DNA from: Isoetes taiwanensis
Lineage: Eukaryota > Streptophyta > Lycopodiopsida > Isoetales > Isoetaceae
Direction of reading: 5' to 3'
DNA length: 64,000 nucleotides
NCBI GenBank assembly: GCA_021234155.1
Contig: JAJEKV010000431.1
Location: forward strand, 62,001-126,000
Shown: positions 5,437 through 42,960 of the stretch, piece by piece
Layout of the letters: the number at the start of each line of letters is the position of its first letter
Position numbering within the stretch: position 1 is the first letter of the stretch
The notes under the pieces: model-generated
The model's database searches: none
What the model was told of the DNA's origin: nothing
The model's input: the letters and a program-made list of their open reading frames with translations, nothing else
Made by a program: the position numbers and the translations under genes

Positions 5437-5438
5437 AT

Positions 5439-7679: not shown

Positions 7680-7773
7680 GAGTAAAGTTGGTTACCCCGC
7701 ATTGAACCAAGCCTAAGTTAGTTTTTAAACAAGGTAACTAGACAAAGAATGACAGTAAGCTATAACTCTACTC
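7680..7773 (-). ncRNA. Conserved nested pseudoknot, module 2 (copy E2)
   Basis: Second tandem copy of the fold at 3032-3125, with the outer helix GAGTAAAGTT/AACTCTACTC and both inner helices retained. Confidence 0.7.
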
Positions 7774-20794: not shown

Positions 20795-20807
20795 AGAAAG
20801 TGCACAT

Positions 20808-21095: not shown

Positions 21096-21116
21096 GTTTT
21101 CTTTTGCTATATTATT

Positions 21117-21591
21117 TATTATTGGCCACAAAATACTGCCATATTTACTGTACTGAAAGAAATTAATAAAAAAAAAAAAATCCAGTCCACGCTAGCCATA
21201 GCAAAAGCCAACTAGCCATGACATCTACTCAGGTCAATCCCCGATGTAGTATTATCTGCCCACATCTAGATCATAAATCTAGAGTGGCATTTGTATTCCG
21301 AGACTCAAGTATATAGTACATATCCTAACCGTAAAACATACTCCAGAAAAACAAGAATTATAGAGACCCCAATGTAGAATCATTTTAATATTAGCCTATG
21401 GCCTCTTCTCAATAATTCGAGTGCATTTGGTCATCAAAACCAAAGTAAACAGTTTCAGTTCAATATTAAAGTGTAGAATATTGAGCCACTAGCTTGCAAA
21501 TCCAGCATATTTTTCAAGGGATATACTACTGCAAATACACCTTTTCAATCATTTGTCAAAGTGCATATAAAAGATAAACTTCCTATATTGA
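21117..21591 (+). repeat. Direct repeat X2 (475 bp) inside the array
   Basis: Second copy of X1. It ends at 'cttcctatattga', after which the 340-bp array unit resumes at 'caaagtgtgcatg'. Few differences separate X1 and X2, so the duplication is young. Confidence 0.8.
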
Positions 21592-24250
21592 CAAAGTGTG
21601 CATGTATGGCTAAAGTTTTGCCCAACGGATGTGTGGTGAGTTGGTATAGGTCTAGTAATGCCAAAATAAATGTGCACTTGGTCAGGGGTTCAAACCCGCC
21701 GGTGTATGTTTATATTTGGGAGTTCAAAGAAGGTTATACAGCCATGATCCCCCGACGTGGTAGAACTTAAGCCCATAATCGTGTCCTCCACTTTGGTTGC
21801 CTTGACCGAGCAAACCACACACCGAGGATATTTCTAGCTAGTTTTCTACAAGATGATATTCTAGTGACAAGACTAGTCTATTTGGACCATAAACAAAAAT
21901 ACAAAAAAAATGCGACTTCCTAAGGCAAAAGATATCCCTGCCACAAAAGTGTGCATGTCAATGGCTAAAGTTTTGCCCAATCGGATGTGTGGTGAGTTGG
22001 TATAGGCCTAGTAATGCCAAAATAAATGTGCACTTGGTCTAGGGGTTCCAAACATACGGTGTATGTTTATATTTGGGAGTTGATTGTTGGGTTATATAGG
22101 CCATGATCCCAAGCGTGGTAGAACTTGGTCCTCAAAATCGTGTCCTCCACTTTGGTTGCCTTGGCCGGTGTAGGATATTTCTAGCTAGTGCGTACAAGAT
22201 GATATTCTAGTGACAAGACTAGTCTAATGGACCATAAACAAAAATACAAAAATGCATACTAAAAGATAAGGAGATATCCGCCTACAAAGTGTGCATGTAT
22301 GGCTAAAGTTTTGCCCAACGGATGTGTGGTGAGTTGGTATAGGCCTAGTAATGCCAAAATAAATGTGCACTTGGTCGGGGGTTCAAACCCGGCCAGTGTA
22401 TGTTTATATTTGGGAGTTGATTACTGGGGTTATACGGCCATGATCCCCGACGTGGTAGAACTTAAGCCTATCGTGTCCTCCACTTTGGTTGCCTTGGCCG
22501 TGATGGGATATTTCTAGCTAGTCTGTACAAGATGATATTCTAGTGACAAGACTAGTCTATTTGGACCATAAACAAAAATACAAAAATTTGTGACTTCTGA
22601 CTTAAAAGGCAGGAGATATCCGCCTACAAAGTGTGCATGTATGGCTAAAGTTTTGCCTAACGGATGTGTGGTGAGTTGGTATAGGCCTAGTAATGCCAAA
22701 ATAAATGTGCACTTGGTGGGGGTTCAAACCGGCCAGTGTATGTTTATATTTGGGAGTTGATTACTGGGGTTATACGGCCATGATCCCCGACGTGGTAGAA
22801 CTTAAGCCTATCGTGTCCTCCACTTTGGTTGCCTTGACCGGCGTTGGGATGTTTTTCTAGCTAGTGCGTACAAGATGATATTCTAGTGACAAGACTAGTC
22901 TAGTTTGGACCATAAACAAAAATACAAAAATGCTCGTGACTTCTAAAAGGCGAGGGAGATATCACGCCTACAAAGTGTGCATGGCTAAAAGTTTTGCCCA
23001 GCGGATGTGTGGTGAGTTGGTATAGGCCTAGTAATGCCAAAATAAATGTGCACTTGGTGGGGGGTTCAACCCGGCCGATGTATGTTTATATTTGGGGAGT
23101 TGATTCTTTGGGGGTTATCTCGGCCATGATCCCAAGCGTGGTAGAACTTAAGCCTATATCGTGTCCTCCACTTTGGTTGCCTTGGCCGGCGATAGGATAT
23201 TTCTAGCTAATGCAGTACAAGATGATATTCTAGTGACAAGACTAGTCTAATTGGACCATAAACAAAAATACAAAAATTTAGTGACTTCCTAAAGGCGGGA
23301 GATATCGCCTACAAAGTGTGCATGTATGGCTAAAGAAGTTTTGCCCAACGGATGTGTGGTGAGTTGGTATAGGCCTAGTAATGCCAAAAAATAAATATGC
23401 ACTTGGTGGGGGGTTCAAACGGTGTATGTTTATATTTGGGAGTTGATTCTTTGGGGTTATCGACCCATGATCCCAAGCGTGGTAGAACTTAAGCCTATCG
23501 TGTCCTCCACTTTGGTTGCCTTGGCCGTGATGGGATATTTCTAGCTAATGCGTACAAGATGATATTCTAGTGACAAGACTAGTCTGGCTGGACCAAAATA
23601 AAAAATACAAAAATTTCCGTGACTTCCCCAAAGTAGGGAGATATCCTGCCTACAAAGTGTGCATGTATGGCTAAAGTTTTGCCCAGCGGATGTGTGGTGA
23701 GTTGGTATAGGCCTAGTAATGCCAAAATAAATATGCACTTGGTGGGGGTTCAAACCCGGCCGGTGTATGTTTATATTTGGGAGTTGATTCTTTGGGGTGC
23801 TCTGACCCATGATCCCGGCGTGGTAGAACTTGTGCCTATCGTGTCCTCCACTTTGGTTGCCTTGGCCGTGATGGGATATTTCTAGCTAGATGCGTACAAG
23901 ATGATATTCTAGTGACAAGACTAGTCAAATTTGGACCAAAAATAAAAAAATACAAAAATTTAGTGACTTCCTAAAGGGGAGATATCACGCCTACAAAGTG
24001 TGCATGTATGGCTAAAGTTTTGCCCAGCGGATGTGGTGAGTTGGTATAGGCCTAGTAATGCCAAAATAAATATGCACTTGGTGGGGGTTCAAACCCGGCG
24101 GTGTATGTTTATATTTGGGAGTTAATTCTTCGGGTTATCGGCCATGATCCGACGTGGTAGAACTTGTGCCTATAAAGTCCTCCTCACTTTAGTTGCCTTG
24201 ACAGCGATGGGATATTTCTACCAAAACAAAAAGACATGTTTATGGTCAAG

Positions 24251-24460
24251 ACTAGACTAGTCTTGTCACTAGAAAATAAAAATTGTAAAAATTAGCGTAG
24301 AAATATCCTGGCCGGCCAAGGCAACAAAGTGTGACATGTATGGCTTAAAGTTTTACCACGCCGGGGATCATGGTGAGTTGGTAAGGCCTAGAATCAATCC
24401 CAAAATAAATATGCACTTGGTGGGGGTTCAACCCGGCACTGCAGGTGCATGTTTATTTAT
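24251..24460. repeat. Mosaic centre of the palindromic array
   Basis: Short pieces of the 340-bp unit in both orientations are joined here (for example 'ccaaggcaac' in inverted sense followed by 'ggtgagttggtaaggcctag' in forward sense). This is the turning point between the forward and inverted arms. Confidence 0.65.
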
Positions 24461-26632
24461 TTTGGCATTACTAGGCCTATACCAACCACCACACATCCGC
24501 TGGGTAAAACTTTAGCCATACATGCACACTTTGTTGCCTTGGATATCTCCCGCCTTTAGGAAGTTTCGGAAATTTTTTGTATTTTTTATTTTTGGTCCAA
24601 GCCTATAAGCAAAACTAGTCTTGTCACTAGAATATCAAATTTCATGCATCCCTAGCTAGAAATATCCTCCGCGGCCAAGGCAACCAAAGTGGAGGATGTA
24701 TAGGCACAAGTTCTACCACGCCGGGATCATGGGTGAGATTGGTATAAGAATCAACTCCCAAATATAAATGATACACCGCCGGGTTTGAACCCCACCAAGT
24801 GCATATTTATTTTGGCATTACTAGGCCTATACCAACTCACCACACATCCGCTGGGCAAAACTTTAGCCATACATGCACACTTTGTAGTTGGATATCTCCC
24901 GCCTTTAGGAAGTCACTGGAAATTTTTGTATTTTTTATTTTTGGTCCAAGCTTTAGACTAGTCTTGTCACTAGAATATCATCTTGTACTGCATAAAGCTA
25001 GAAATATCCCATCACAAGGCCAAGGCAACCAAAGTGGAGGACACGTGATAGGCACAAGTTCTACCACGCCGGGATCATGGCCGTGATAACCGAAATTTTG
25101 TATTTTTATTTTGGTCCGCAAGAATCAACTCCCAAATATAACATACACCGCCGGTTTGAACCCCCTCCCAAAGTGCATATTTATTTTGGCATTACTAGGC
25201 CTATACCAACTCACCACACATCCGCTGGGCAAAACTTTAGCCATACATGCATTACTCCTTTGTAGGCGGTGGATATCTCCCTTTTAGAAGTCACGGAAAT
25301 TTTGTATTTTTTATTTTTGGTCCAGCTAGACTAGTCTTGTCACTAGAATATCATCTTGTATGCACTAGCTAGAAATATCCCATCACGGTCAAGGCAACTA
25401 AAGTGGAGGACACGATAGGCACAAGTTCTACCACGCCTGGGATCATGGCCGATAACCCCAAGAATCAACTCCCAAATATAACATACACCGCCGGCTTGAA
25501 CCCCACCAAGTGCATATTTATTTTGGCATTACTAGGCCTATACCAACTCACCACACATCCGCTGGGCAAAACTTTAGCCATACATGCACATTTTTGTAGG
25601 CGTGGATATCTCCTACACCCCGCACTTTAGGAAGTCACGAAATTTTTGTATTTTTTATTTTTGGTCCAGCCTAGACTAGTCTTGTCACTAGAATATCATC
25701 TTGTACGCACTAGCTAGAAATATCCCATCACGGCCAAGGCAAATTAAAGTGGAGGACACGATAGGCACAAGTTCTACCACGCTTGGGATCATGGCCGAGA
25801 TAACCCCAAGAATCAACTCCCAAATATAAACATATTACCGGGCCGGGTTTGAACCCCACCAAGTGCATATTTATTTTGGCATTACTAGGCCTATACCAAC
25901 TCACCACACATCCGCTGGGCAAAACTTTAGCCATACATGCACACTTTGTAGGCGTGGATATCTCCCGCCCTTTAGAAGTCACGAGAAAATTTTGTATTTT
26001 TATTTTTGGTCCATTTAGACTAGTCTTGTCACTAGAATATCATCTTGTACGCACTAGCTAGAAATATCCTATCTGCGGTCAAGGCAACCAAAGTGGAGGA
26101 CACGTGATAGGCACAAGTTCTACCACGCCGGGATCATGGGTCAGATAACCCCAAAGAATCAACTCCCAAATATAACATACACCGCCTGCTTGGAACCCCA
26201 CCTAAGCGCATATTTATTTTGGCATTACTAGGCCTATACCAACTCACCACACATATGGGCAAAACTTTAGCCATACATGCACACTTTGTAGGCGGATATC
26301 TCCCGCCTTTAGGAAGTCACGGAAATTTTTGTATTTTTTATTTTTGGTCCAAATTTAGACTAGTCTTGTCACTAGAATATCATCTTGTACGCATAGCTAG
26401 AAATATCCTATCTGGCCAAGGCAACCAAAGTGGAGGACACGATAGGCACAAGTTCTACCACGCCGGGATCATGGCCGATAACCCCAAGAATCAACTCCCA
26501 ATATAAACATATAATCGCCGGCTTGAAACCCCGACCAAGTGCATATTTATTTTGGCATTACTAGGCCTATACCAACTCACCACACATCCGTTGGGCAAAA
26601 CCCAGCTGGTTGCTACCAACCCAGAAGATTCG
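24461..26632 (-). repeat. Inverted arm of palindromic tRNA-like repeat array
   Basis: About seven inverted units carry the complement ACACATCCGCTGGGCAAAAC near 24497, 24841, 25205, 25556, 25910, 26253 and 26585. The arm ends with 'ccgttgggcaaaacccagc' and 'ggttgctaccaacccagaag', the exact complement of the left end at 19413-19452. The whole 7.2 kb block can therefore form a very long hairpin when transcribed. Confidence 0.8.
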
Positions 26633-27492
<860 letters not shown>

Positions 27493-27504
<12 letters not shown>

Positions 27505-29647
27505 CTTGCCAACCTGGCAGATCTTTTTTGCACAACCAAACAACTTAACCATTAGAGTGTTAATATCGCACCTTAACCTGGGGAAAATCTTCATCATTGG
27601 TACCTTACGCACCTTATGCCATACATCCTGCTTTCTGAAGCCATTTTTAATAAAGGCATTCATGAGATCAGTCAAACAATCTGCTGCCTTAAGTGGATTA
27701 GAGAAAACGTACAGATAGGGCCGAATTTGTGATATGATGATATTGCGGGCCATTAGATATGGCCTACAACCGCTTTGAGTGCACAAACCTACATACTTTA
27801 AAAGGAAGCTTATCTCTTGTCGAATCTGAATGTTTCAGAGTCGCCAAATTGTGGCATAATAATTTCTATGCTCATGTTCAAAAAAATCAACCCATCCGCC
27901 CTTTGATTTACAGGTAGATATCCCAATAAAGCATTCTCGCGTCTTTAATTGTTAAATGCTCTAAATTGTATATATGCAAATCAGTCACTTCTCCTGAAAT
28001 CAGTCCCAAAAATTTCCTGATCATTGGATTATTAATAGCAAGCAAATCATCAATGTACCTAAAGGTGTAACCAAATAGCTTTGCTTCCTGTAGTCTACCT
28101 GTTCGAATCAAATTACCTATAAATCTTAGTTCAAAGAAAGCCAAATAGAGGTTGCACCAGCTGGGGCTTGATGCAAAGCCCATAGGGATCCCTTTGGTTT
28201 GTCTCCAAATCGTATCACCCATCACCAAGTAACAATTATTTAACAGCCATATGTTAAGCTTAACAAAGAGATCCCTGCTCATCAATTTCCATTTTTTACT
28301 ATCCTCAGGTCTGTTTGGTTTCCATTCAATTTTGATACTGTTGTTATCCAAAACAAAATACCATAAATCAGCTTTGGGAAGTATCCTTCTTTGATGTTTC
28401 CATGCCAAATCAATAACCTCCATCATGACATTACAAATTCCATTATCCCCGTTCAACGGGATGTTTTCGTAACATTTTGTGATATCTGCCACAAATACAT
28501 CCTTAATTTTGGCTGGAAGATTACAAACAACATCATAAATAGAATTAACTACCCATGAAGCCTTAATTTGATCCTGTGCAAACAAATTTGCTGCCTGACA
28601 TTTTCTCTGACAAATGCTTGGCCATATATCCATGATACATTTCAGTCCACCCGCAACAATTGAGGCCACTGTTGAAAAAATACTATCGTGTGCATTCGTT
28701 ATCCATCTATATTCCAATTTATGCGCCTTAAAAATGCCAAGTAAATATGGCATATCAGTGGAGCAAACTAGTTTCTCACCAAGCAAACCTACAATGTCAT
28801 TTTCCACTTGGTTGATCAATGCAATTCTAGTCATGTCACATTTAGTAAAGTCACTGCTGTCCAATCTTTTGTAGGCTTCATTTCTAATATGAAAAGGGCA
28901 AATAAAAGCAGGATTATTAGCTGCTTTGTCCACACCAGCAATGTACAGATTATGCACAATCCATTCCATATTCCTACTAACTATTTCATCTTTGATCATA
29001 AACTTTTTCTTATTCATACAATTCTCCTCAATAAAACGCGTTTATTTGCCCCTTAATTTCCTTCTTTAATGCCTTTTTACAGGCCAGCACAGTATCATCC
29101 TCATCCGTTGAAAAAGCATGTCTATGTACCATGAAAAATTGTTCAATAGTCTCAGCCATTTCTGCTTTGTACCTCTCCAAAGTAAAAGGGTAATCAGGTA
29201 TAAAGTTCAGACCCATGCCGAACCATTGTCTAAGTGGTTTGCTGTGCACAATTTCTAACTGCAGTCTCCGATATGTCCTATGGCAGGGTCAATAAACTTC
29301 CTCAAGTTAGGATTATTACATGGGCAAGGTGGTGTACTACAATCAGCAAAAGTCAGTTTAGGTCTGTAGAATAAGTCTTTAAGTGTGTTAGAGTATCTCC
29401 AACCAAACTTAGTCATGTCACAGAGTTCGATACCCTTGTCACCAAAATGTCTACAAATGACTGTTTTAAAAGTATCCTTGAAGTCAATCTTGTCTACTAC
29501 TTTAGAAAAATATGTGACATGCACAAACTTTTCTATTTTTCTTTCTCTGATTGTAACAAGTTTCCATTTTCCATCAACACCAGTGATAAGTTCTCTCCTT
29601 CTTGTCTGTACGAAAATAAAGTTCTTATGAATATTAAAGGTATACAA
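27493..29647 (-). pseudogene. Diverged PLE reverse transcriptase (copy C)
   Basis: Reverse transcriptase related to the copy B enzyme along its whole length, from an N-terminal FVQTRRREL segment (after an acceptor-like 'cataag' that matches the acceptor in copies A and B) to the C-terminal SGCRPYLMARN...SQIRPYLY block. The palm motifs A, B and C are all legible. The reading frame is interrupted several times, so no single product is expected. No GIY-YIG endonuclease domain is seen at either end. Confidence 0.8.
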
Positions 29648-30170
29648 AAAGTATTTGGCACTGTGGCCAGAGTTATATGCTCATGCATATCTCAAACTCA
29701 GTCAAAGCACACATACCAAAATATCATATGTATTTTTCATTTTTCAAAAACTGTGTAACAGATACTATTGTCTGATGCAACAGACTAATAACAGAAACAA
29801 CTGAAACAACTGAAAATAAAGGGGCCATGAACATTTACCATGATAGTAAACCAATCCAGCACATATTCAAAACCTGATTTTATTCTGCCTATTCAGAACC
29901 TGATCTTTCAACATCCCATAGGTGGCAATCATTGCTTCATTGGTCTGTTCCTGTGAATCCAGGTTGACATAGTTAGTTGTAGCAGTCTTCTTGCAGATCT
30001 TTGGAGGCCTCAGAATAGTATCAGCTGGAATTTCAGTCACATGATTCTTCTTTTTTGTAGCATAGGTGGTACTGTTATTATCATGCAGATGCTTGGCCAG
30101 AAAGCTGATTGGTTTAATGGTTTTTTCCAATAAGTCTGCAGCCTTAGAGCCACCAAACTCCCTCTTCAAA

Positions 30171-30439
30171 TCACAGTTTAGGTTTATATAGAATGCTTTT
30201 TAGATTTCCAAGGAATTTCCATCCAAACCTTGTCTTCTCCATCAGTTCATCCCCTATGTCAGGGAATGCATTACTTATGGCTTCTTTGAAGGCCAAATTA
30301 ATTTTGATCTTGTCCATGCACTTAGAGAAAAAGAGGAAGTGCACATATTTATAGCCTTCAATGCTTTTAGTAGTCTTTAACTGCCATCTTCCTTCAGCAT
30401 TTTTGCTAAGTTCTCGTGTTTTGATCTGCACGAAATATT
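30171..30439 (-). pseudogene. RT N-terminal fragment (PLE copy A)
   Basis: Encodes the same first 85 residues or so as the copy B RT (after the acceptor 'catag'), through GNLKSILYKPK. It ends where the sequence switches to copy C. The piece has no palm motifs and cannot be active by itself. Confidence 0.8.
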
Positions 30440-30702
30440 CTATGATTAGGTGGGGGCTGAAGCTAGTTAAAGCTATAGTTGGGGTGATGAATCCCGCTCA
30501 AAGCATGAGCAACATCATTCTTTTAGGGTTCATCCCTTTAGGTAGTAGTAGATCAAAGAGACATGACTATCAGAGAGAAGTACATCACAGAGTAAACTTT
30601 TGAAAACCGAAATGCATGTAAAATATTTCATACCATGTAGTAAACAGAATCAAGTTACCTCTTTTTTTAAAACGAGATTTTACTTCCTTGTATGCCATCA
30701 GT

Positions 30703-32303
30703 TCAAAAACTCCGTTCAGCTTCATTTTTGTTGTTGTTTTTGTTAACTGATTCGTCTGCTATGTTTGCAGCTGAATTGTCACTGATTTCCATGTATGTTC
30801 TGCTACCAGGTGTACGTGAAGTGGATGCATCTGGTTTTTTGTAGACAGATAGAGGTAGAATGACGTCTGGGTCAGTCAGATCAATGATGGGTGCTTTTCT
30901 TTTGCTGGAGGATGTATCCTGGTTATTGTTGGCCAGATTATTGCTGTTATTAGCAGACTTACCAATCAGGAACTTCATGGGGCGTATGGTCTTTTCAAGC
31001 AGTTCTGACATTTTGGTATTGCCAAATTCTACGTTCAGATTGGCTTCAGGGTTGTTGGCATAGCGGATGGTCATGTTTATCAGTGTTTCCCGCACTCGGA
31101 GGTATCCAATATATGCAATGACGGCTGTGCAGTGGGGGATTTCTGAGCAGGGAGCTAAAAAGAACAAAACGTACAGTTGATGAATGCTCGGGCCATATAG
31201 TATCCAGGTGATTCATCATGAACCAAATGGCGTGGTCAAACCACTTGATTCCATCTTTGATCCTTTTTTTTTTGTCGTGTGTATTTCTGGCAGTTACATT
31301 TTATGTAAGGACAATAGCTTCTCCAGATTTTTCTTAGATAGAAATCATTGCGTTTTTCTTCAGATTTGGCCATGTGGTCTTTTTGGCCCATCATGAATCC
31401 ATCCCCTTTACCACACTGTTTGCCAAAGAAGGAGATGTTGAAAGGCAATTCAACATCCATTCTATCTACTGTTCTGATAAAGCTATCAGCATTAGCGTGA
31501 GCCTGCTTAATTTCCTCTGGAGTGATACCAGCTAGCATAATCCATGTTTCTTTGGAAATAGGAGCAATCAGGCCAAGGTTGTTGGATTTCCAGATAGCTT
31601 GCTTGTATTTCTGTCCAAGAGATTCAACTAGTCTGGGGGATAAAATAGGAAAACCGCAACAGTTGGACAGATTAAGAGATTTGAGCTTATAGTCATCAGC
31701 CAGATCAATTTCATTGGAGGCGGTTTGTGCTACAGCACCAGGATTAATGCCAAGAATTGCATTTCTTTCATCTTCTGTGAGGGTATTCATGTCAAATAAA
31801 CAGCTATTGAAGTTGATAGCAGGAGTAGGTTTAGGCAAGCTTTGGCTAGGAGCTTTAGTAAGCGCTGGATTGGAAATCTTTACTCCACTAGCTTTTTCTA
31901 GTGCTGTCACACCTTTAATGTAGGTCTGCACATTGGCTTTATCAAGAATAGTTGCATCAAAGATAGCAGTAGGAAGCTGTTCATATGCACGGTTGATAAT
32001 GGCAGCACAAGGATTGAACTCAAAGTTGTGCTCTTTGAATTTGTTTGCCAGAGCTAGCATATTATTGGTTCCTAGGAACATGATAATAGAAAATTCATCA
32101 GGAGCAAGGTTAGTCTCACAGTAAATGATGTGTTTGTGTATTTCTGGTTTTTTGATGCAGCCAAGGATAAGCTGGACAGCATTATTCGGAGCAATGATAG
32201 GTGTATCATTGTAGCCCATCTCCTTTAGTTCAGGGATCCAGTGTCCTTTGCCAACAATGCTGACTAGATCCGGATCTTTTTTTCTGTTATCAGGGCAAGA
32301 TTC
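30703..32303 (-). pseudogene. PLE ORF1 exon, copy A (interrupted)
   Basis: Corresponds to the 545-codon exon of copy B (37622-39259), beginning after the acceptor 'tactgtgtag'. It is split into two readable parts (30703-31167 and 31236-32303), so there is about one break. Content and motifs are as in copy B. Confidence 0.75.
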
Positions 32304-32443
32304 CTACACAGTAAATATCTCAAGGTTAGTGGTAGGAAAATAGCAGCAGCATGTTCACTTCAGATTATGAGGAAAAGCTTTTAACAGTGTAAGATGACAA
32401 TAGATATATAGAAAATAAATTTAAGGTGCGAAAAGTGGAAGGT

Positions 32444-32574
32444 AGTTCTCATGGCCCATTGCCAGTTAAACCAGCAAACTGAAGTCGCTGAATATATAGA
32501 TATCCTGTCCAGTTCCCAAACAGAACCAAGACTTATCAGTCCCTAAGTCCAGCTTAGGGAAGCACATGAGAACT
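32444..32574 (-). ncRNA. Conserved RNA fold, module 1 (PLE copy A intron)
   Basis: Transcript strand: AGTTCTCATG closes with CATGAGAACT. Inside are hairpin CCCTAAG/CTTAGGG, joining strand ACTGATAAGTC, a middle stem, joining strand ATATATTCAGCGACTTCAG and hairpin GCTGG-TTTAA-CTGGC. It lies immediately downstream of the small exon 2, within the intron before the ORF1 exon. The same plan occurs at 2135-2305 and 6787-6953 with compensating helix changes. It does not match hammerhead, twister or HDV cores as I know them. Confidence 0.65.
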
Positions 32575-32576
32575 TA

Positions 32577-32687
32577 GTGTAGGAAGACTTTGTGATTTAT
32601 CCAGGTTTCAACTAGTCCTGGAATAGGAATAAAGGCAGACTCTATGTCAAACCATTTTGAGCAGTTCTTATCGTCTGATTCAGATTC
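32577..32687 (-). CDS. Small second exon of PLE ORF1 (copy A)
   Basis: Starts after acceptor 'ctattatag' and is open in phase 0 for 37 codons, matching phase 0 of the first exon's donor (cag|gt at 33538/33537) and of the next exon at 32303. The peptide starts ESESDDKNCSKWFDIES, continuing the acidic Ser/Asp tail of exon 1. The donor was not fixed: the frame stays open to 32577, and aaa|gtcttc at about 32589 is one option. RNA module 1 begins directly after it. Confidence 0.55.
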
Positions 32688-33309
32688 CTATAATAGAAGT
32701 TGTATCAAAGTATTTTAGTTAAAAAGCAAATATTTATGCACCTTATTTATGGTCGTATTTATTGCTTTGTGTAATAGAATAAAGCATTCAGAGCTAGAAA
32801 GGATAGTATTTCTTTTTTCTTCATACCTGCTATGCTGTATGCAGTTATTTCGATTATCTAGAATCAGTATTCCATCCATGTATTTACGAGTATTTACTGC
32901 CTAGAGTAAACTGCTATGCATCCTTATCCTTTGCACTAGTTAGCATGTGCATTAAACAAAGAGATGGCTTTTTAAAAAATTTTGCTACAGACTTTACGCA
33001 CTGCTCAGATTTATATTCACTAGAAGAACTAGTACAAAATATTCAAAAGGACCTGTGTTCATATGTTCATAACAGTAAACTGAAAATATTATTTCCGCAG
33101 GTTATATCAAGACTAGAAGTGTCATAAACCTTGATATCATATGAAAGCATCCAAAATATGTGGAAAAACAGAAAGTCATACCTATCTTTCTTGATAGAAA
33201 TTTAAAACAAGTATGGAAATACATAAAAAACAGAGAATCTAGGTGTCCCTTGATGCAGCATTCATCAAAGGCGTCTCCTCATAACCGAAAACAAGAGAAG
33301 AATAGAGAA

Positions 33310-33400
33310 ATTATACTCCGGTTACCTGCATTCAATCAAACCCAAATTAGCTTCATAAAGGTAATCGGGACGGAATGACAGGTAAGCTAGAGAGTATAAT
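33310..33400 (-). ncRNA. Conserved nested pseudoknot, module 2 (PLE copy A intron)
   Basis: The outer helix is ATTATACTC (33310-33318) with GAGTATAAT (33392-33400). GGTTACC (33320-33326) pairs with GGTAAT (33360-33365) with one mismatch, and TTAGCTT (33347-33353) pairs with TAAGCTA (33383-33389), interleaved. It sits in the roughly 850-nt intron between exons 1 and 2. The non-coding elements at 3032-3125 and 7680-7773 share the fold and the inner strands but have a different, still paired, outer helix. Confidence 0.7.
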
Positions 33401-33537
33401 GGCTTTTCGCCCTTTGCCCTATCAAGAACTCAGATTAGTTACATTGAAATCAAACTGTAGAACTGGATCAGTTTGAAACAAAAGGAAAATGAAGAACATG
33501 CATACTTAGATGTAAAATACATATAAGCTAAAGGGAC

Positions 33538-34326
33538 CTGATTTAGTGGTAGGTCATCAGATTCAGAGTCATCATCTGCGTCGCCATTGCTTTCATAGGT
33601 ATCCTCCTTGGGAGTAGAATCATCCAGATTTACAATGCTCTCAGGTGTATTCTTTGTGGCTAAGAATTTAAGCATGCCATCTTGCTTATTCTTCATTTCT
33701 TTCTCAACCTCAGAGTCAAGGCCAGCTTTTCTTATCATATCGATTAAAGTTTTCTTGGGCAGATCCTTAGTAGATGTTCCATCTGCTCTACCATGCTCAT
33801 TCAGCAGTGCTGCCTTCTTGAGAATCTTGATGTACATTTCCCTGGTTGGATTATTGTTGGAGCTGCCTTTGGGACGAGTCATTGCTCTTCTTTTAGAGAA
33901 ACAGTAGTCACAAGTATCACAGATGCAGATTTCAGAAATGGAATGGCTTGTAGGGTAGCTGCAAATATTTAGGGAGATGTTGGCAGCATCAAAGATGATT
34001 TGATCAGGGCTACATGAGCAATTCCAGGCTAGGCGCCATGCTTTTGAATGATGTAAAGGCTTACTTTGCTCTAGAGCCTCAGCTGAACTGCTGGATTTAT
34101 CAGGATCAGAAATGTTACCAAATGTTTCTGAGTTAGATCCACAAGAACACCCCCATCTGTGGCGATTTGCACAGGGATGTTCAGCCTCTTTCCCTTTGTC
34201 AAATGTACCTGGTTCAGGATGTGAGGGAAGCGTCTGCTCAAGATGCTTAAGATCAAATGAAGCGCTAGGGTCAAGGGAGAGTTCCTCAAGAAAAAATGCA
34301 ATGTCTATAAATTCCTCTGAGTCCAT
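33538..34326 (-). CDS. PLE cysteine-rich first exon (copy A)
   Basis: ATG-initiated and open for 263 codons to a donor cag|gtccct (the frame continues another 32 codons into the intron). The product is acidic at both ends. Ten cysteines lie at residues 52, 60, 62, 103, 105, 122, 134, 136, 139 and 142, the last group as CICDTCDYCFSKRR, which suggests metal-binding knuckles followed by a basic patch. Residues 160-215 are helical and charged. No known domain was recognised, and it is not a GIY-YIG nuclease. The start is chosen as the only ATG giving the whole frame. It is intact here and disrupted in copy B. Confidence 0.65.
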
Positions 34327-34613
34327 TTTCCCGCTCTGTTGGAGCTCTTTGTGCGGGAGAAATGCAATATACTGCTTCCATCTTTACTTTCAGCTGATTA
34401 AAATTTAAAAAATCTTTGAATATCTTTGAAAATCATGTGGAAAGGGAATACCATGGTAGCCATAGCTTCAAGACCGTCGTTTTGCAGCTGGTAGGTGCCG
34501 AAATCATCAAGGTGGGTACCATGCAGGCGGTACCATGTCCGGTTTGAGGATTTTTGGCGCTCCCATATCTTCAATATAGTCGTTACCTGTCTAATCGCTT
34601 CCAGGAGAAGAAC

Positions 34614-34632
34614 CCTAAACTTGGAGTTTAGG
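34614..34632 (-). other. Perfect hairpin in PLE 5' region (copy A)
   Basis: CCTAAACT-TGG-AGTTTAGG forms an 8-bp stem. It recurs in copy B at 41579-41596 with a shorter loop. It lies 0.5 kb from the 5' terminus, upstream of the first ATG. The arms resemble the plant telomere unit CCCTAAA, which may be chance. Confidence 0.5.
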
Positions 34633-35144
34633 TTTTCGCATGCTTAAGGTTTTCAGGTATAGGTTTTGACCTAGTAAGGTCGTAATCCTAAACGAAAGCA
34701 TTTAAAATAAATATAACAAGGATTTATGCCTCTCCTCTAATGCTAAAAATTAGATGTTAGGCAAAAATAAAATATCTAGGAGTGTAATGGTGTCAGATAT
34801 TTAAATGTCTCTTAGCCATTGAATTTGGCTTTTCCTTTTGGTTAACGTTGCCGAAACTCCTGTAGTAAAATTCAGGGGTTAATGGTCGAGTGTAACATGT
34901 ATCTACAAGTAAATATAAGGAATATCTACAAGTAAATAAGGCCTTAAAGAAATATCCATTTTCGAGAATTTGTATCTCTTAAACATGAGGACATGGGCTA
35001 GTCTTCCTTCCTTGGGACCCATCTGTAATGTACTTAGAGGGATGGGTATATGCTAATTCCTTGAGCTGAAACAGTCCGGTGCTAGATAAACTCATCAAAT
35101 ACTGTTATTGGTATTTCTAAAGAAAAAACAGACAGTGGCCTTTG

Positions 35145-35172
35145 AATATATATTTATATGTATAGATATATA
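35145..35172. repeat. TA-rich junction between PLE copies A and B
   Basis: Contains ATATATATTTATATGTATAG, then 'atatataaattttt', joining the 5' end of copy A to the 3' end of copy B. The same 5'-end phrase borders copy B at 42112-42133. Confidence 0.8.
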
Positions 35173-35176
35173 AATT

Positions 35177-35270
35177 TTTAAGTCCTACCTCCAACCGGAA
35201 GACAGGGTGAGACAGATATGTGGTAATAAAAGGAGCCAGGAAGGGACCCTTTATTACCAAAGAGTCCCCC
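35177..35270 (-). other. 3'-terminal RNA pseudoknot of PLE copy B
   Basis: TGGTAATAAA (35221-35230) pairs perfectly with TTTATTACCA (35250-35259). GGGAC (35243-35247), in the loop, pairs with GTCCC (35264-35268) beyond it. A short hairpin TCC-AACC-GGA lies at the terminus. This is the clearest member of the series seen at 781, 5439, 18879 and 27422. Confidence 0.75.
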
Positions 35271-35277
35271 CTGTCAA

Positions 35278-37394
35278 CTAAATACTAAGAAAAAGCAAGT
35301 CATACCTGTATGAATGCAGAATGTTGATTAAACATTTGATATCAAATTGTAGTCCAGGGTATTGCTCCTCCATGAGATTATTATTGACAGCTCGCCAAAT
35401 GTCTTTGCTTCCAAAACCCTTATGTGTGAAAGTCTGCACAAGGTTGTAGATATCCAGTGCAGCAGCAGTTGGGTTGCTGTGAGTATACAGGTATGGCATG
35501 ATCTGTGATACAATTACGTTGCATGCCTGGTGGTATGGGCGACAGCCGCTTGCATTAATGAACCTGGAGACTTTGAAAGGAAGCTTTTCCCTCTTGTCGT
35601 ATCTGCAAGTTTCGAAGGTACCATGCATAGGATGTATAATATCGATGGATATGTTTAGAAAGTCTGCATGTTTGCCCCTGTTTTGCCACTGTATAATTTC
35701 AGTCCAATAGATGGTTTCGTCCTTTATTTTCAAGTGCTCAAGATCATAGATGGTAATATCAGCGTTACTGTTGCCTTCCAGGCCTAGAAATTTTCTGATG
35801 TATTTGTTATTGATGGAATTTAGGTCATCCATATATCTGTATGTATTTCTGAAAGCTAAAGCCTCTTCCCATCTGCTGGCTTTTAAAAGTTTTAAAATGA
35901 ACGTTAATTCGAACCAAGCCAGGTAGAGGTTGCACCATCCTGGGCTGCATGCAAACCCCATTGCAATACCTCTATTCTGTCTCCAAATGTGACTACCCAT
36001 CTGTAGATAGCAGTTTTTTAGCAACCAGATATTCAAATTGGTAAAAAGGTCTTGATCCAATAGATTGAATCTTGATCCCTTAGGTTGCTGGTGTGCCCAA
36101 CAGGTTTCGATCTCTCCATTGCACTTAGTGGCATACCATAAGTTATTCTTTCTATGTATTCTCTTTTGGCTTTTCCAAGTCATATTAATGACTTCCTTGA
36201 TAATGGAGCAGATTCCATCATCCCCATCTATGGGAATATTCTCGTAGCATTTCGTAATGTCAGCTACGAATACTTCATGAATACTTTCAGGTAGGTTACA
36301 TGCTATTTCGTATATGGAGTCAATGACCCAAGATGCCTTAGCCTTTTCCTTGTGGAAAAAATTGAAGCCGTCACAGGTTTCCTTGCAAATTCTAGGCCAG
36401 ATATTTAAAATGGTGTTTAGTCCAGCAGCAATGATGCTTGCAGGTAGCGTGAATATTGTGTCATGGGCGTTGGTTATCCACCGATATTCTCCCTTGTGCG
36501 CTTTGTATATTCCCAACAGATACGGCAGTGAGTCATTTGTGGTGGGCCAAAAACCTAGAAGGATTTGGATATCCCATTTGATTTGCATTTTAAGATCATC
36601 TGAGCAAATATCAATTCTGCCAAAATCAGTTCCATCTAGCCTTTTATAGGCTTCATTTCTCATGTGGTAAGGACAAATAAAAGAGGGGTTGTTCCCTGCT
36701 TTATCCACTCCAGAAATGTACAGGTTCTTATTGAGCCATTCAATATTTTTAATGACACTAGGGTCATTTATCATAAATCTCTTTCTTTTCCTCATCTCTG
36801 TTCCCAAATATGTCTTGGCCATATCTTTGGCAGCTTTACTGATGGAGGTTTTAGCATTTGTCAGTAGCAGCTGTGAGTAATCTTGGAGACTGAATCTATG
36901 AACAGTAAAGAATTGTTCAATAGTTTTATCAACTTCTTCCATGAACGTATTCATGGTGAAAGGGTGATCAGGTATGTGGTTCAATCCAATATCCAACCAG
37001 TTTCTCAAAGCTACATTATGCACAATTTGAACATCTGTGGTTCGAATATGCCCTATGCTTGGGTCTACAAAAGTACTTAAAGTGGGATTGCTGCATGGAC
37101 ATGCCATAGACCTAATGTCAGCAAAGACTGTTTTAGGTTTATATAGAATGCTTTTTAGATTTCCAAGGAATTTCCATCCAAACCTTGTCTTCTCCATCAG
37201 TTCATCCCCTATGTCAGGGAATGCATTACTTATGGCTTCTTTGAAGGCCAAATTAATTTTGATCTTGTCCATGCACTTAGAGAAAAAGAGGAAGTGCACA
37301 TATTTATAGCCTTCAATGCTTTTAGTAGTCTTTAACTGCCATCTTCCTTCAGCATTTTTGCTAAGTTCTCGTGTTTTGATCTGCACGAAATATT
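35278..37394 (-). CDS. PLE reverse transcriptase, main exon (copy B)
   Basis: A single open stretch of about 705 codons following acceptor 'atcatag'. Numbering from Met/Val at 37386: a CPCSNP motif at 96-101; a PLE-like fingers block YLLGIYKAHKGEYRWITNAHD at about 289-309; motif A VADITKCYENIP with Asp376; motif B GIAMGFACSP at 473-482; motif C YRYMDD with Asp520/Asp521; and a post-palm YDKREKLPF block with SQIMPYLY, as in PLE enzymes. All catalytic aspartates are present. It copies element RNA in the nucleus. No GIY-YIG domain follows. The end may be spliced: a donor (cag|gtatga) lies at 35306/35305, before the stop at 35278. Confidence 0.85.
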
Positions 37395-37613
37395 CTATGA
37401 TTAGGTGGGGGCTGAAGCTAGTTAAAGCTATAGTTGGGGTGATGAATCCCGCTCAAAGCATGAGCAACATCATTCTTTTAGGGTTCATCCCTTTAGGTAG
37501 TAGTAGATCAAAGAGACATGACTATCAGAGAGAAGTACATCACAGAGTAAACTTTTGAAAACCGAAATGCATGTAAAATATTTCATACCATGTAGTAAAC
37601 AGAATCAAGTTAC
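37395..37613 (-). other. Predicted intron in PLE RT gene (copy B)
   Basis: A 219-nt intron with donor aagag|gtaact and acceptor atcatag|aat. It joins the short first RT exon (phase 1) to the main RT exon (two bases, then TAT TTC GTG) in frame. The diverged copy C keeps an acceptor at the same protein position. Copy A has the identical sequence. Confidence 0.7.
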
Positions 37614-37680
37614 CTCTTTTTTTAAAACGAGATTTTACTTCCTTGTATGCCATCAGTTCGAAAACTCCGTTCAGCTTCAT
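37614..37680 (-). CDS. Short first exon of PLE RT, overlapping ORF1 (copy B)
   Basis: ATG at 37680 opens a 67-nt exon of 22 codons plus one base in a different frame from ORF1, whose stop is at 37622. The peptide begins MKLNGVFELMAYKEVKS and ends with basic residues before the donor. It is inferred from the exact phase match to the main RT exon and its presence in copy A too. The alternative is that the RT starts at a later codon in the main exon without splicing. Confidence 0.55.
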
Positions 37681-39259
37681 TTTTGTTGTTGTTTTTGTTA
37701 ACTGATTCGTCTGCTATGTTTGCAGCTGAATTGTCACTGATTTCCATGTATGTTCTGCTACCAGGTGTACGTGAAGTGGATGCATCTGGTTTTTTGTAGA
37801 CAGATGGAGGTAGAATGACGTCTGGGTCAGTCAGATCAATGATGGGTGCTTTTCTTTTGCTGGAGGATGTATCCTGGTTATTGTTGGCCAGATTATTGCT
37901 GTTATTAGCAGACTTACCAATCAGGAACTTCATGGGGCGTATGGTCTTTTCAAGCAGTTCTGACATTTTGGTATTGCCAAATTCTACGTTCAGATTGGCT
38001 TCAGGGTTGTTGGCATAGCGGATGGTCATGTTTATCAGTGTTTCCCGCACTCGGAGGTATCCAATATATGCAATGACGGCTGTGCGCAGTGGGGGATTTC
38101 TGAGCAGGGAGCTAAAAAGAACAAAACGTACAGTTGATGAATGCTCGGGCCATATAGTATCCAGGTGATTCATCATGAACCAAATGGCGTGGTCAAACCA
38201 CTTGATTCCATCTTGACAGTCACTTTTTCGTCGTGTGTATTTCTGGCAGTTACATTTTATGTAAGGACAATAGCTTCTCCAGATTTTTCTTAGATAGAAA
38301 TCATTGCGTTTTTCTTCAGATTTGGCCATGTGGTCTTTTTGGCCCATCATGAATCCATCCCCTTTACCACAATCTTTGCCAAAGAAGGAGATGTTGAAAG
38401 GCAATTCAACATCCATTCTATCCACTGTTCTGATAAAGCTATCAGCATTAGCGTGAGCCTGCTTAATTTCCTCTGGAGTGATACCAGCTAGCATAATCCA
38501 TGTTTCTTTGGAAATAGGAGCAATCAGACCAAGGTTGTTGGATTTCCAGATAGCTTGCTTGTATTTCTGTCCAAGAGATTCAACTAGTCTGGGGGATAGA
38601 ATAGGAAAGCCGCAACAGTTGGACAGATTAAGAGATTTGAGCTTATAGTCATCAGCCAGATCAATTTCATTGGAAGCGGTTTGTGCTACAGCACCAGGAT
38701 TAATGCCAAGAATTGTATTTCTTTCATCTTCTGTGAGGGTATTCATGTCAAATAAACAGCTATTGAAGTTGATAGCAGGAGTAGGTTTAGGCAAGCTTTG
38801 GCTAGGAGCTTTATTAAGCGCTGGATTGGAAATCTTTACTCCACTAGCTTTTTCTAGTGCTGTCACACCTTTAATGTAGGTCTGCACATTGGCTTTATCA
38901 AGAGTAGTTGCATCAAAGATGGCAGTAGGAAGCCGTTCATATGCACGGTTGATTATGGCAGCACAAGGATTGAACTCAAAGTTGTGCTCTTTGAATTTGT
39001 TTGCCAGAGCTAGCATATTATTGGTTCCTAGGAACATGATAATAGAAAATTCATCAGGAGCAAGGTTAGTCTCACAGTAAATGATGTGTTTGTGTATTTC
39101 TGGTTTTTTGATGCAGCCAAGGATAAGCTGGACAGCATTATTCGGAGCAATGATAGGTGTATCATTGTAGCCCATCTCCTTTAGTTCAGGGATCCAGTGT
39201 CCTTTGCCAACAATGCTGACTAGATCCGGATCTTTTTTTCTGTTATCAGGGCAAGATTC
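37622..39259 (-). CDS. PLE ORF1 main exon (copy B)
   Basis: Open in phase 0 for 545 codons from acceptor 'tactgtgtag' to stop. The first ATG is at 39175. The protein has an N-terminal region of mixed helices, a cysteine group SYCPYIKCNCQKY near residues 329-341 followed by Cys348, a hydrophobic helical section (WFDHAIWFMMNHL; TAVIAYIGYLRVRETL), and a low-complexity Asn/Ser-rich tail. I do not recognise a family; it is presumably the nucleic-acid-binding partner of the RT. Copy C has the same C-terminal motif, so the protein is conserved in this PLE lineage. Confidence 0.7.
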   Translation of the reverse strand, partial: ESCPDNRKKDPDLVSIVGKGHWIPELKEMGYNDTPIIAPNNAVQLILGCIKKPEIHKHIIYCETNLAPDEFSIIMFLGTNNMLALANKFKEHNFEFNPCAAIINRAYERLPTAIFDATTLDKANVQTYIKGVTALEKASGVKISNPALNKAPSQSLPKPTPAINFNSCLFDMNTLTEDERNTILGINPGAVAQTASNEIDLADDYKLKSLNLSNCCGFPILSPRLVESLGQKYKQAIWKSNNLGLIAPISKETWIMLAGITPEEIKQAHANADSFIRTVDRMDVELPFNISFFGKDCGKGDGFMMGQKDHMAKSEEKRNDFYLRKIWRSYCPYIKCNCQKYTRRKSDCQDGIKWFDHAIWFMMNHLDTIWPEHSSTVRFVLFSSLLRNPPLRTAVIAYIGYLRVRETLINMTIRYANNPEANLNVEFGNTKMSELLEKTIRPMKFLIGKSANNSNNLANNNQDTSSSKRKAPIIDLTDPDVILPPSVYKKPDASTSRTPGSRTYMEISDNSAANIADESVNKNNNKNEAERSFRTDGIQGSKISF

Positions 39260-39399
39260 CTACACAGTAAATATCTCAAGGTTAGTGGTAGGAAAATAGC
39301 AGCAGCATGTTCACTTCAGATTATGAGGAAAAGCTTTTAACAGTGTAAGATGACAATAGATATATAGAAAATAAATTTAAGGTGCGAAAAGTGGAAGGT

Positions 39400-39532
39400 A
39401 GTTCTCATGGCCCATTGCCGCTAAAACCAAAGAAACCAAGTCAGCGAATATATAGATATCCCGCCCGGTTCCCAAAAGAAACAAGACTTATCGGGCCCCT
39501 AAGTCCAAATTTTAGGGAAGCACATGAGAACT
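39400..39532 (-). ncRNA. Conserved RNA fold, module 1 (PLE copy B intron)
   Basis: Same as 32444-32574, with the AGTTCTCATG/CATGAGAACT closing stem intact. Interior differences from copy A fall on CAG/CTG triplets, including the small hairpins, which suggests sequencing error rather than evolution. Confidence 0.6.
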
Positions 39533-39534
39533 TA

Positions 39535-39645
39535 GTGTAGGAAGACTTTGTGATTTATCCGGGTTTCAACTAGTCCCGAATAGGAATAAAGGCGTAACTC
39601 TATGTCAAACCATTTTGAGCAGCTTCTTATCGCCCGATTTGATTC
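39535..39645 (-). pseudogene. Small second exon of PLE ORF1 (copy B)
   Basis: Counterpart of 32577-32687 in copy A. The acceptor 'ctattatag' is retained, but the frame is not clean in this assembly. Confidence 0.45.
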
Positions 39646-40268
39646 CTATAATAGAAGTTGTATCAAAGTATTTTAGTTAAAAAGCAAATATTTATGCACC
39701 TTATTTATGGTCGTATTTATTGCTTTGTGTAATAGAATAAAGCATTTGAGCTAGAAAGGATAGTATTTCTTTTTTTTCTTCATACCGCTATCTTTGTCAT
39801 GCGATTATTTCGATTATCTAGAATCAAGATTCCATCCATGTATTTACTTTAGTATTTATTGCCTAGAGTAAACCGCTATGCATCCTTATCCTTTGCACTA
39901 GTTAGCATGTGCATTAAACAAAGAGATGGCTTTTTAAAAAATTTTGCTCTCAGGACTTTACGCGATCGCCGATTTATATTCACTAGAAGAACTAGTACAA
40001 AATATTCAAAAGGACCGGTTCATATGTTCATAACAAGAAACTGAAAATATTATTTCCGCAGTTATATCAAGACTAGAAGTGTCATAAACCTTGATATCAT
40101 ATGAAAGCATCCAAAATATGTGAAAAAAAGAAAGTCATACCTATCTTTCTTGATAGAAATTTAAAGCAAGTATGGAAATACATAAAAACAGAGAATCTAG
40201 GTGTCCCTTGATGCAAAGATTCATCAAAGGCGTCTCCTCATAACCGAAAACAAGAGAAGAATAGAGAA

Positions 40269-40359
40269 ATTATACTCCGGTTACCTGCATTCAATCAAAC
40301 CCAAATTAGCTTCATAAAGGTAATCGGGACGGAATGACAAGTAAGCTAGAGAGTATAAT
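40269..40359 (-). ncRNA. Conserved nested pseudoknot, module 2 (PLE copy B intron)
   Basis: Copy B counterpart of 33310-33400, with ATTATACTC/GAGTATAAT and both inner helices present. Confidence 0.7.
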
Positions 40360-40495
40360 GGCTTTTCGCCCTTTGCCCTATCAAGAACTCGATTAGTTAC
40401 ATTGAAATCAAACTGTAGAACCGGATCAGTTTGAAACAAAAGGAAAATGAAGAACATGCATACTTAGATGTAAAATACATATAAGCTAAAGGGAC

Positions 40496-41294
40496 CTGAT
40501 TTAGTGGTAGGTCATCAGATTCAGAGTCATCATCTGCGTCGCCATTGCTTTCATAGGTATCCTCCTTGGGAGTAGAATCATCCGTTTACAATGCTCTCGT
40601 GTGTATTCTTTGTGGCTAAGAATTTAAGCATGCCATCTTGCTTATTCTTCATTTCTTTCTCAACCCTCGAGTCAAGGCCGACTTTTCTTATCATATCGAT
40701 TAAAGTTTTCTTGGGCAGATCCTTAGTAGATGTTCCATCCGCTTCTACCATGCTCATTCAAAGAAGGTTGCCTTCTTGAGAATCTTGATGTACATTTCCT
40801 CGGGTTGGATTATTGTTGGAGCTGCCTTTGGGACGAAGTCATTGCTCTTCTTTTTAGAGAAACAAGAGTCACAAGTATCACGGATGCAGATTTCAGAAAT
40901 GGAATGGCTTGTAGGGTAGCCGCAAATATTTAGGGGAGATGTTGGCAAGATCAAAGATGATTTGATCGGGGCTACATGAGCAATTCCGGGCTAGGCCATG
41001 CTTTTGAATGATGTAAAGGCTTACTTTTGCTCTAGAGCCTCAAATTTGAACTCGGCTGGATTTATCAGGATCAGAAATGTTACCAAATGTTTCGAAGTTA
41101 GATCCACAAGAACACCCCATCCGTGGGCGATTTGCAATGTGGATGTTCACCTCTTTCCCTTTGTCAAATGTACCGGTTCGGGGATGTGAGGGAAGCGTCC
41201 GCTCAAGATGCTTAAGATCAAATGAAGCGCTTAGGGTCAAGGGAGAGTTCCTCAAGAAAAAAATGCAATGTCTATAAATTCCTCTCGAGTCCAT
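40496..41294 (-). pseudogene. PLE cysteine-rich first exon (copy B, disrupted)
   Basis: Counterpart of the intact exon at 33538-34326. The ATG and donor positions are kept, but the frame is interrupted several times. Differences from copy A are concentrated at CAG and CTG triplets, so the damage may be an assembly artefact. Confidence 0.6.
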
Positions 41295-42133
41295 TTTTCC
41301 CCTCTGTTGGAGCTCTTTGTGCGGGAGAAATGCAATATACCGCTTCCATCTTTACTTTTCAGCTGATTAAAATTTAAAAATCTTTGAATATCTTTGAAAA
41401 TCATGTGGAAAGGGAATACCATGGTAGCCATAGCTTCAAGACCGTCGTTTTTGTACCGGTAGGTGCCGAAATCATCAAGGTGGGTACCATGCAAAGGTAC
41501 CATGTCCGGTTTGAGGATTTTTGGCGCTCCCATATCTTCAATATAGTCGTTATTGCCTAATCGCTTCCAGAGAAGAACCCTAAACTTGAGTTTAGGTTTT
41601 CGTGATGCTTAAGGTTTTCGTGTATAGGTTTTGACCTAGTAAGGTCGTAATCCTAAACTAAAAGCATTTAAAATAAATATAACAAGGATTTATGCCTCTC
41701 CTCTAATGCTAAAAATTAGATGTTAGGCAAAAATAAAATATCTAGGAGTGTAATGGTGTCAGATATTTAAATGTCTCTTAGCCATTGAATTTGGCTTTTC
41801 CTTTTGGTTAACGTTGCCGAAACTCCTGTAGTAAAATTCAGGGGTTAATGGTCGAGTGTAACATGTATCTACAAGTAAATATAAGGAATATCTACAAGTA
41901 AATAAGGCCTTAAAGAAATATCCATTTTCGAGAATTTGTATCTCTTAAACATGAGGACATGGGCTAGTCTTCCTTCCTTGGGACCCATCTGTAATGTACT
42001 TAGAGGGATGGGTATATGCTAATTCCTTGAGCTGAAACAGTCCGGTGCTAGATAAACTCATCAAATACTGTTATTGGTATTTCTAAAGAAAAAACAGACA
42101 GTGGCCTTTGAATATATATTTATATGTATAGAT

Positions 42134-42960
42134 ATATATACAAGAAAATTAGCACGTCCTACGGTGCATGTTCCAAGGGTGCAAGTTCCAATTTTAGCAT
42201 GTTCCTACAGTGCAAGTTGAAATTCTCTTGGATTTGATGTTGTAGATTCCCCTTTAATTCCATGATATTCCTCGCTTAGATTATATGAAGATTCCTTTGG
42301 TTCTCCAAGAATCCATTAGATTTTGATCCTATCAAGATTGCCCTAGATTCTCTAAGATTTATGAAGATTCTCTTAGATTTGCCTCAAATTCCACGAGATT
42401 CTCGTAGGTTCGCTTAAATTTACTTAGATTTTATGAGATCCTCCTAGGTTGGCTATTTGCTTGGCAAATACACTGGTTAGCAAGGATATATTCATAGATT
42501 ACCTTCTAGTATAATCTTGGCATCAAGGTCATGTAAGTATGGACTTAGGCTTTAACCGTGGTCATCACCCTTATGTCACTATAGGATTTCAGAGAAAACC
42601 ATTATATGGTTGCATAATTCTGTTACTGACAGGGAGGTGCAGGGCAATTCAAGGGACACTAAAAAATTCATGGTTCCAACACTAAAAAAGTATGGACATT
42701 AAGCATCATAGGGGTGACTTCCCTTATGCCACAACAGGATTTCAAGGACATCCACTATATGGTTGCCACTTTTATGCTATTGACAGGGGAGTGCTGGGCC
42801 AATCAGAGACCATTGAATATATATTTATATGTATATAGATATACAAGTTTTTGTACTATGAGGGGTTGTATTGTAAGAGGTTGTACTGCGAGGGGATTTG
42901 CAAAGTCAACAGGTTGCAAAGACTTTATTAACCTGTTAATGTCGAATTTGTACCATGTGA
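42134..42960 (+). repeat. TA-led repeat with degenerate AGATTCC minisatellite
   Basis: 42134-42335 is the same as 63803-64000 apart from isolated differences ('acaagaaaattagcacgtcc...'). It runs into a stretch rich in variants of AGATTCC (42230-42450), as at 62100-62420. A second TA-rich edge with 'gatatacaag' and 'ttgtactatgagg' lies at 42820-42870. It is non-coding, and PLE copy B is inserted at its TA edge. Confidence 0.7.

Follow-up and report, generated by a model that had tools for sequence, protein, structure and literature searches.

Many known Penelope-like elements (PLEs) carry hammerhead ribozymes in their terminal repeats, or pseudo-LTRs, and the accessible part of one account describes the role of these hammerheads as unknown (PMC7761336), how PLEs choose and process their own RNA being poorly known in general. 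Our analysis of a 64,000-nucleotide stretch of the Isoetes taiwanensis genome (hereafter the window) concerns a PLE-like element with a structured RNA of a different kind. Like the PLE and Terminon hammerheads covered in that part of the account (PMC7761336), it is a small conserved RNA located in the terminal repeats of tandem reverse transcriptase (RT) elements and it is shared with non-autonomous relatives. It differs from them in its length of 127 model positions as compared to a minimal hammerhead, and in showing neither an Rfam hammerhead match nor a hammerhead core pattern. All results on the motif were obtained from one genome of 1.66 Gb, which 66 matches to the chlorophyll a/b-binding family identify as that of a plant.

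Copy 1 of the motif occupies positions 33298–33423 on the minus strand, where the element also has its coding sequence. The original prediction had described an interval of 33310–33400, which does lie within the motif although the real unit is larger, and had named four copies, all of which are present at the positions given, to which a fifth, decayed copy can now be added. Searching with cmsearch gave 126.9 bits for copy 1 and 123.3 bits for copy 2 (40257–40382), which lies in the second unit of the same 6955-bp tandem, and 84.0 and 81.2 bits for copies 3 (3021–3147) and 4 (7669–7795) of a non-coding 4643-bp tandem. The decayed copy 5 (15926–16048; 73.7 bits) is located outside both arrays and carries the helix P2 variant GUACCU/AGGUAC; all five copies are on the minus strand.

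The fold is a nested three-way junction that consists of a closing helix P0, a hairpin GGC-GAURA-GCC and a long arm P1-P2-P2b/c-P3. In copy 1 (minus strand throughout) the 5' arm of P0 (33417–33423) pairs with 33301–33307, and four of these seven pairs were changed on both sides among 12 aligned copies. The hairpin between P0 and P1 reads GGC-GAAAA-GCC (33401–33411) and has GGU/ACC in locus L027. P1 (33391–33400 with 33310–33319) is the outer helix of the original prediction, which had it kept by different bases in different copies, and all 10 of its pairs were indeed changed on both sides in the same 12 copies. P2 and P2b follow as UUACCUG-U-CAUUC (33373–33385) paired with GAAUG-CAGGUAA (33322–33333), with 100% of cells paired and three P2b pairs changed on both sides in the 12-copy alignment. 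The P3 hairpin (33347–33364) is composed of UUA-C-CUU, a loop and AAG-C-UAA, in which the U-A next to C-G becomes A-U or C-G with pairing kept. The unpaired nucleotides UGAAG, GAURA and YUGKUU are conserved as well, and some of these sit at the three-way junction in the 12-copy alignment. RNAalifold, unprompted, returned nearly the same fold from this alignment (43 pairs, 21 changed on both sides), and four single sense-strand sequences also folded in this way with small variations.

We reject the pseudoknot originally proposed from two interleaving and supposedly conserved inner helices, as these helices showed no pair changed on both sides, with 71.4% and 78.6% of cells paired in the 12 copies, and their pairing is lost in many families. 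Among 98 copies they paired in 69.1% and 79.5% of cells, in comparison to 99.3% for P2 and 97.8% for P3, and one P3 pair was held in all 98 copies (UA 26, AU 26, CG 43, GU 2 and UG 1). The interleaved helices could be seen at all because UUACC and GGYUAA each occur twice in the motif.

The 12 copies were picked among those in loci found by a 95-nt query, where near-identical copies were omitted, as were copies with a damaged P2 (both 4.6-kb copies of the window, L014 and the second copies of several arrays). Their MAFFT alignment gave a nested structure of 44 pairs with 94.3% of cells paired and 23 pairs changed on both sides, against 14.7 in shuffles. A covariance model (R1) matched 109 times in 97 sources, all 80 newly fetched loci among them, and in these matches 35 of the 44 pairs were changed on both sides against 29.1 in shuffles, with a covariation score of 0.596 against 0.189. 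The 80 loci were selected visually, so as to be diverse, from listings of patterns in which most of P2 is fixed and, for part of the loci, also GGGCGA of the hairpin; since damaged-P2 copies were omitted from the 12 as well, the invariance of P2 is partly by construction. When the listing was made without fixed P2, the P2 5' arm was intact in 60 of 91 class-I copies and changed in 31 (100 places were listed by this pattern, from which eight class-II rows and one chance row were omitted).

Shared ancestry was taken into account with our own R-scape-like implementation, in which substitutions are re-placed along a FastTree tree in 60 simulations, applied to 98 distinct rows of an alignment (A3) from which the low-scoring L014, L030, L044, L068, L090, L103 and L108 were dropped and in which L054 and L088, also low-scoring, were retained. 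Sixteen pairs reached E<0.05 and all 16 fell within the nested structure, distributed as P0 2, P1 8, P2b 3, P2c 2 and P3 1, so that half of them belong to the outer helix. A structure-blind MAFFT alignment gave 12 pairs at E<0.05, 10 in the nested structure and two outside, both of which join a P3 column to one P2b 3'-arm column. The selection on RNA structure that had been suggested from four copies is supported by the shuffle, tree-aware and structure-blind tests alike. Many further homologues were found as well, and compensatory changes preserve the outer helix in them, contrary to the outcome that had been named as refuting the original prediction.

G.U exceeded A.C on the minus strand by 33:2 in one count and by 359:50 in the structure-blind alignment, so that selection acts on the RNA of the coding strand. 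The two strands cannot be distinguished by folding energy, as z-scores of -2.98, -3.65, -1.71 and -3.35 were obtained for sense sequences and -3.37 for the antisense of copy 1, which folds well too. Of 3630 candidates from an RT-core search of the genome, 113 were scored, and long open frames were present in most of these. At least 21 of the 113 had a listed motif within 6 kb, based on motif positions copied by hand from the pattern listings, and the nearest motif was on the same strand in 20 of 21, the exception being an RT locus next to an opposite-strand array. On contigs C1–C111 three of three RT loci had a listed motif within 6 kb, two of them by the core-pattern listing and one by the listing without fixed P2 arms.

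The host of copies 1 and 2 is a tandem made up of a single 6955-bp unit and a direct terminal repeat of ~5 kb (30177–42138, minus strand), and all of its exons described here are on that strand. No Pfam match was obtained for the ORFA exon (37622–39259; broken copy at 30667–32303) or the ORFC exon (33538–34383, to the limit of the open frame). The RT open reading frame (35278–37452) has motifs that we take to be those of PLE reverse transcriptases; RVT_1 is weak in this copy (E 0.0036, below cut-off) and matches six of the seven members of the RT alignment (best 3.2e-6). Comparison of the RT with PDB gave no significant match (best E 0.43 and 0.31), and a GIY-YIG endonuclease, a domain likewise absent from EN(-) PLEs, had no Pfam match in five window ORFs and seven RT members. 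Tandem or partial-tandem copies with pseudo-LTRs, a hallmark of PLEs, are present, and together with the RT motifs this layout suggests that the element is a PLE. A second, divergent PLE-like RT copy was observed at 27283–27423 and 27550–30184 of the window (minus strand), adjoining a perfect (AT)70 tract, which is what insertion at a microsatellite would produce. At 19445–26601 a ~341-bp tandem repeat forms large arrays in either orientation, with a GGTTCAAACCC box that to us resembles a tRNA B box.

Copy 1 lies between the ORFC and ORFA exons in a predicted intron of 1234 bp (32304–33537, minus strand; CAG^GUCCCU...ACUAAC-N-UGUGUAG^GAA, where ^ marks the predicted junction). The intron is predicted because coding similarity among families is interrupted between LNQ^GU and UGUAG^GAA (^ESCP), beyond which it continues in frame. 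The motif is thus placed within a predicted intron of a PLE-like gene, in agreement with the original prediction, and would be removed from the spliced mRNA.

A core pattern, GCTTACCN{50,70}GCAGGTAAC, was found at 2683 places in the genome in comparison to 6 for a reversed control, and a pattern without fixed P2 arms at 2083 places against 55. Among 100 places listed, eight were assigned by eye to a second motif class with GUACC instead of UUACC in P2. Copies of this class were seen on contigs C1, C12, C17, C26, C79 and C113, and window copy 15926–16048 also belongs to it, its 3' arm being changed correspondingly (AGGUAC). The core pattern had no match in viral contigs; in prokaryote contigs it gave 25 stretches, none of which had an R1 E below 0.01 (best 12.9 bits), and these were taken as chance. 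As had been supposed, no named RNA family was found for the motif: Rfam 15 gave no match above the gathering threshold for the window and eight loci, and the surroundings of copy 1 gave three weak matches (E 3.1–8.3). The hammerhead family likewise had no gathering match in the window and the eight loci, the CTGANGA...GAAA pattern occurred five times in the window where 4.4 are expected by chance, and the motif itself has no hammerhead core pattern. A hammerhead or other known RNA was rejected on these grounds, as was a retrozyme, there being no hammerhead in the window or eight loci. Among the matches listed from an open-access literature subset, no description of the motif was recognised.

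Of all the sequence compared across ten units, the motif was the most widely shared, being present in coding units (window PLE, L013, L021 and L027) and non-coding ones (L012, L015, L017, L018, L025 and the window 4.6-kb repeat). The 4.7-kb repeat of L012 keeps ORFA residues 18–119 and RT residues 639–717, which identifies it as a PLE derivative with an internal deletion and not as a repeat of other origin; it keeps two motif copies. These RT and ORFA fragments were located at 4878–5114 and 5250–5552 of the locus. L025 gave no protein similarity and keeps three motif copies, and in the window array at 1–10072 no PLE protein fragment of the L012 kind was found. Among arrays searched with the model, the motif occurred once per period in L012, L013, L018, L021, L024, L025, L027 and both window arrays. 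Several loci consist of one unit plus a direct terminal repeat, and since the terminal repeat contains the motif, such insertions hold at least two copies of it. In a tree of units within arrays most units clustered by array, those of L015 and L018 by unit, and L024 fell within L025, a topology that favours neither circular nor tandem templates.

L016 and L017 are different loci with identical element ends. For L016, L017 and L021 both ends are located in tracts of A or TTC, L012, L025 and L027 each have a single visible end, which is in (AT)n, and the window PLE end at 30177 shows no microsatellite or such tract. In sense orientation an insertion starts at a site A, just past a conserved block, and ends at a site B, past a third block. 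The site-A block, GGGYCCYUAU...CUUCCGGNNGGAGGUAGG, was present in eight of the ten units compared; cross-family comparison places this second conserved non-coding block, with its AT-rich site A, at 35117–35293 (minus strand), and its sequence is conserved without covariation in eight copies. It was also observed at 5398–5542 of the window, and it is located directly 5' of the AT-rich insertion end. L013, L015, L018 and L025 have the third block in common, which is weaker and ends at site B. Between the motif and the B end, six loci have 607–1341 bp and the window PLE has 3121 bp; given this variation, and the position of the window PLE end at 30177 away from a microsatellite, the motif is not a simple priming structure. 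A further motif copy (83.9 bits) was noted at 8311–8437 of L016, a short way beyond the element end at 7978, which means that another element adjoins this one.

The reading we prefer, tentatively and at somewhat short of an even chance, is that the motif is a cis-acting template-recognition signal of a large plant PLE-like family, present only on unspliced genomic RNA. It is favoured by the position of the motif in a predicted intron, by its retention in derivatives lacking intact genes and by the conservation of P2 and P3 in sequence as well as pairing. Because it sits in that intron, the motif would be kept only on unspliced, genome-length RNA. An element protein, either the RT or its ORFA/ORFC parts, would bind it and thereby select full-length RNA, whether its own or that of motif-bearing non-coding parasites, as the template for reverse transcription. 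Copying may begin at site B, which is downstream and rich in AT, A or GAA, and proceed as far as site A upstream, which would yield one unit plus a terminal repeat. Several features count against recognition: the distance from the motif to the B end varies, folding energy does not separate the strands, the splice-like letters GCUAAY...UGCAG^GUAAC in the motif are unaccounted for, and the conserved unpaired UGAAG, GAURA and YUGKUU would be equally expected of a catalytic core.

The main rival, owing to the position of the motif and these unpaired nucleotides, is a self-cleaving ribozyme of a new class, in place of the hammerhead known from other PLEs. Cleavage in both terminal-repeat copies would cut tandem transcripts to RNAs of unit length, which might then form circles and be used as templates; we consider this rival rather unlikely. 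The motif does take the position of a hammerhead, being located in the terminal repeat and, in coding and non-coding elements alike, once in each period of the arrays searched, in the window and eight loci where no hammerhead was found and with the core pattern at chance in the window; conserved unpaired nucleotides are located at its three-way junction, and PLE and Terminon hammerheads are themselves described as conserved in the accessible part of their account (PMC7761336). Against this, no known ribozyme core was matched, the insertion ends inspected are not at the motif, and a cutter within the intron of its own gene would need to be slower than splicing. That an undescribed, possibly protein-assisted self-cleaving class has displaced the hammerhead in a plant PLE lineage, has thousands of genomic copies and supplies coding and non-coding elements with unit-length, possibly circular templates is a distinctly unlikely proposition in our estimate.

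Many copies have small changes in the P2 arms that resemble scars of cleavage, and 10 of the 31 class-I copies with a changed P2 5' arm have no listed relative above 80% identity. Twenty changed loci were fetched, 11 of them with a sibling copy, and with L140, in which the 3' arm is changed, these made 12 pairs chosen for their P2 changes (changed loci among L110–L127 and L140; siblings among L129–L138); one earlier listing of P2-changed copies used a gap of 45–65, which selected for insertions. In the 12 pairs 64 of 105 difference events were at CAG/CTG sites, which make up 372 of 2872 nt, and outside P2 such sites account for 243 of 2575 nt and received 37 of 71 events, which is a tenfold excess; the excess at ACG/CGT was weaker. 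Since the same pattern runs throughout the ~240 bp compared, the P2 changes are no evidence of cutting, and cleavage or junction scars at P2 were rejected. The clustering at CAG/CTG suggests CHG-methylation-linked sequencing error or mutation in the assembly. In 13 within-array pairs the motif was not a substitution hot spot (2.66% vs 2.83%, totals that include a window PLE row with a misplaced motif), and indels fell inside the motif in three of four cases in L017 and three of 11 in L016.

The splice-like letters could alternatively belong to a structure that controls splicing, either by keeping the intron in genomic RNA or by acting as a recursive splice site, a reading to which we assign little probability. 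It would be composed of a branch-point-like GCUAAY and a back-to-back UGCAG^GUAAC whose 5' splice site is paired to CUUACCUG, presumably like the 5' end of U1 snRNA. The invariance of GCUUACCUG and GCAGGUAAC beside helices that covary fits this reading in the 12-copy set, from which damaged-P2 copies were omitted, as does the position of the motif in a predicted intron with weak-looking 5' splice sites. The motif is, however, kept in non-coding arrays that have no intact gene to splice, and the splice-like letters may be coincidence because P2 resembles P3 (UUACC...GGYUAAC in both). A lariat template was rejected, as the lariat-copy product, the motif minus its branch tail, occurred 0 times in the single predicted junction form searched, in comparison to 2683 intact cores, and this also counts against splicing control. 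A feature of the DNA rather than the RNA, such as a cruciform or a recombination or insertion site, would suit a long inverted repeat in arrays that could grow by recombination, but the tolerance of G.U on one strand (359 vs 50 and 33 vs 2) and the orientation fixed relative to the RT (20 of 21) leave it hardly any probability.

In this plant lineage without a detected hammerhead, thousands of copies of an unrelated and strongly selected RNA take its position, and the non-coding units provide natural smaller substrates, so that a recognition signal and a ribozyme can be directly tested against each other. If a recognition signal, the motif may mark transcripts for copying back into DNA. A retroviral packaging signal is a structured signal found only on unspliced genomic RNA, as is proposed for the motif; the element and the fold are unrelated and the comparison is an analogy only.

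Among plant elements, the EN(-) PLEs of Selaginella and conifers and the Dryad elements of conifers (PMC9033089) are comparable in being plant PLEs, some of them without GIY-YIG, and the accessible part of that account mentions no such RNA element. PAc, a Poseidon element of Anolis carolinensis, shares with the present element its tandem copies and AT-rich targets, together with an internal start in a stem loop and a structured RNA upstream of the start site, according to the accessible text (PMC11167929). PAc differs in having a GIY-YIG endonuclease and a hammerhead, neither of which was found in the sequences scanned here, and the start site of the present element is deduced from insertion ends. 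Plant LTR retrozymes, as far as the accessible part of their description goes (PMC4918200), are similar as non-coding plant retroelements with a conserved RNA motif and differ in that they carry hammerheads, whereas the non-coding units described here are about 2.5–4.7 kb and that of L012 is derived from a PLE-like element.
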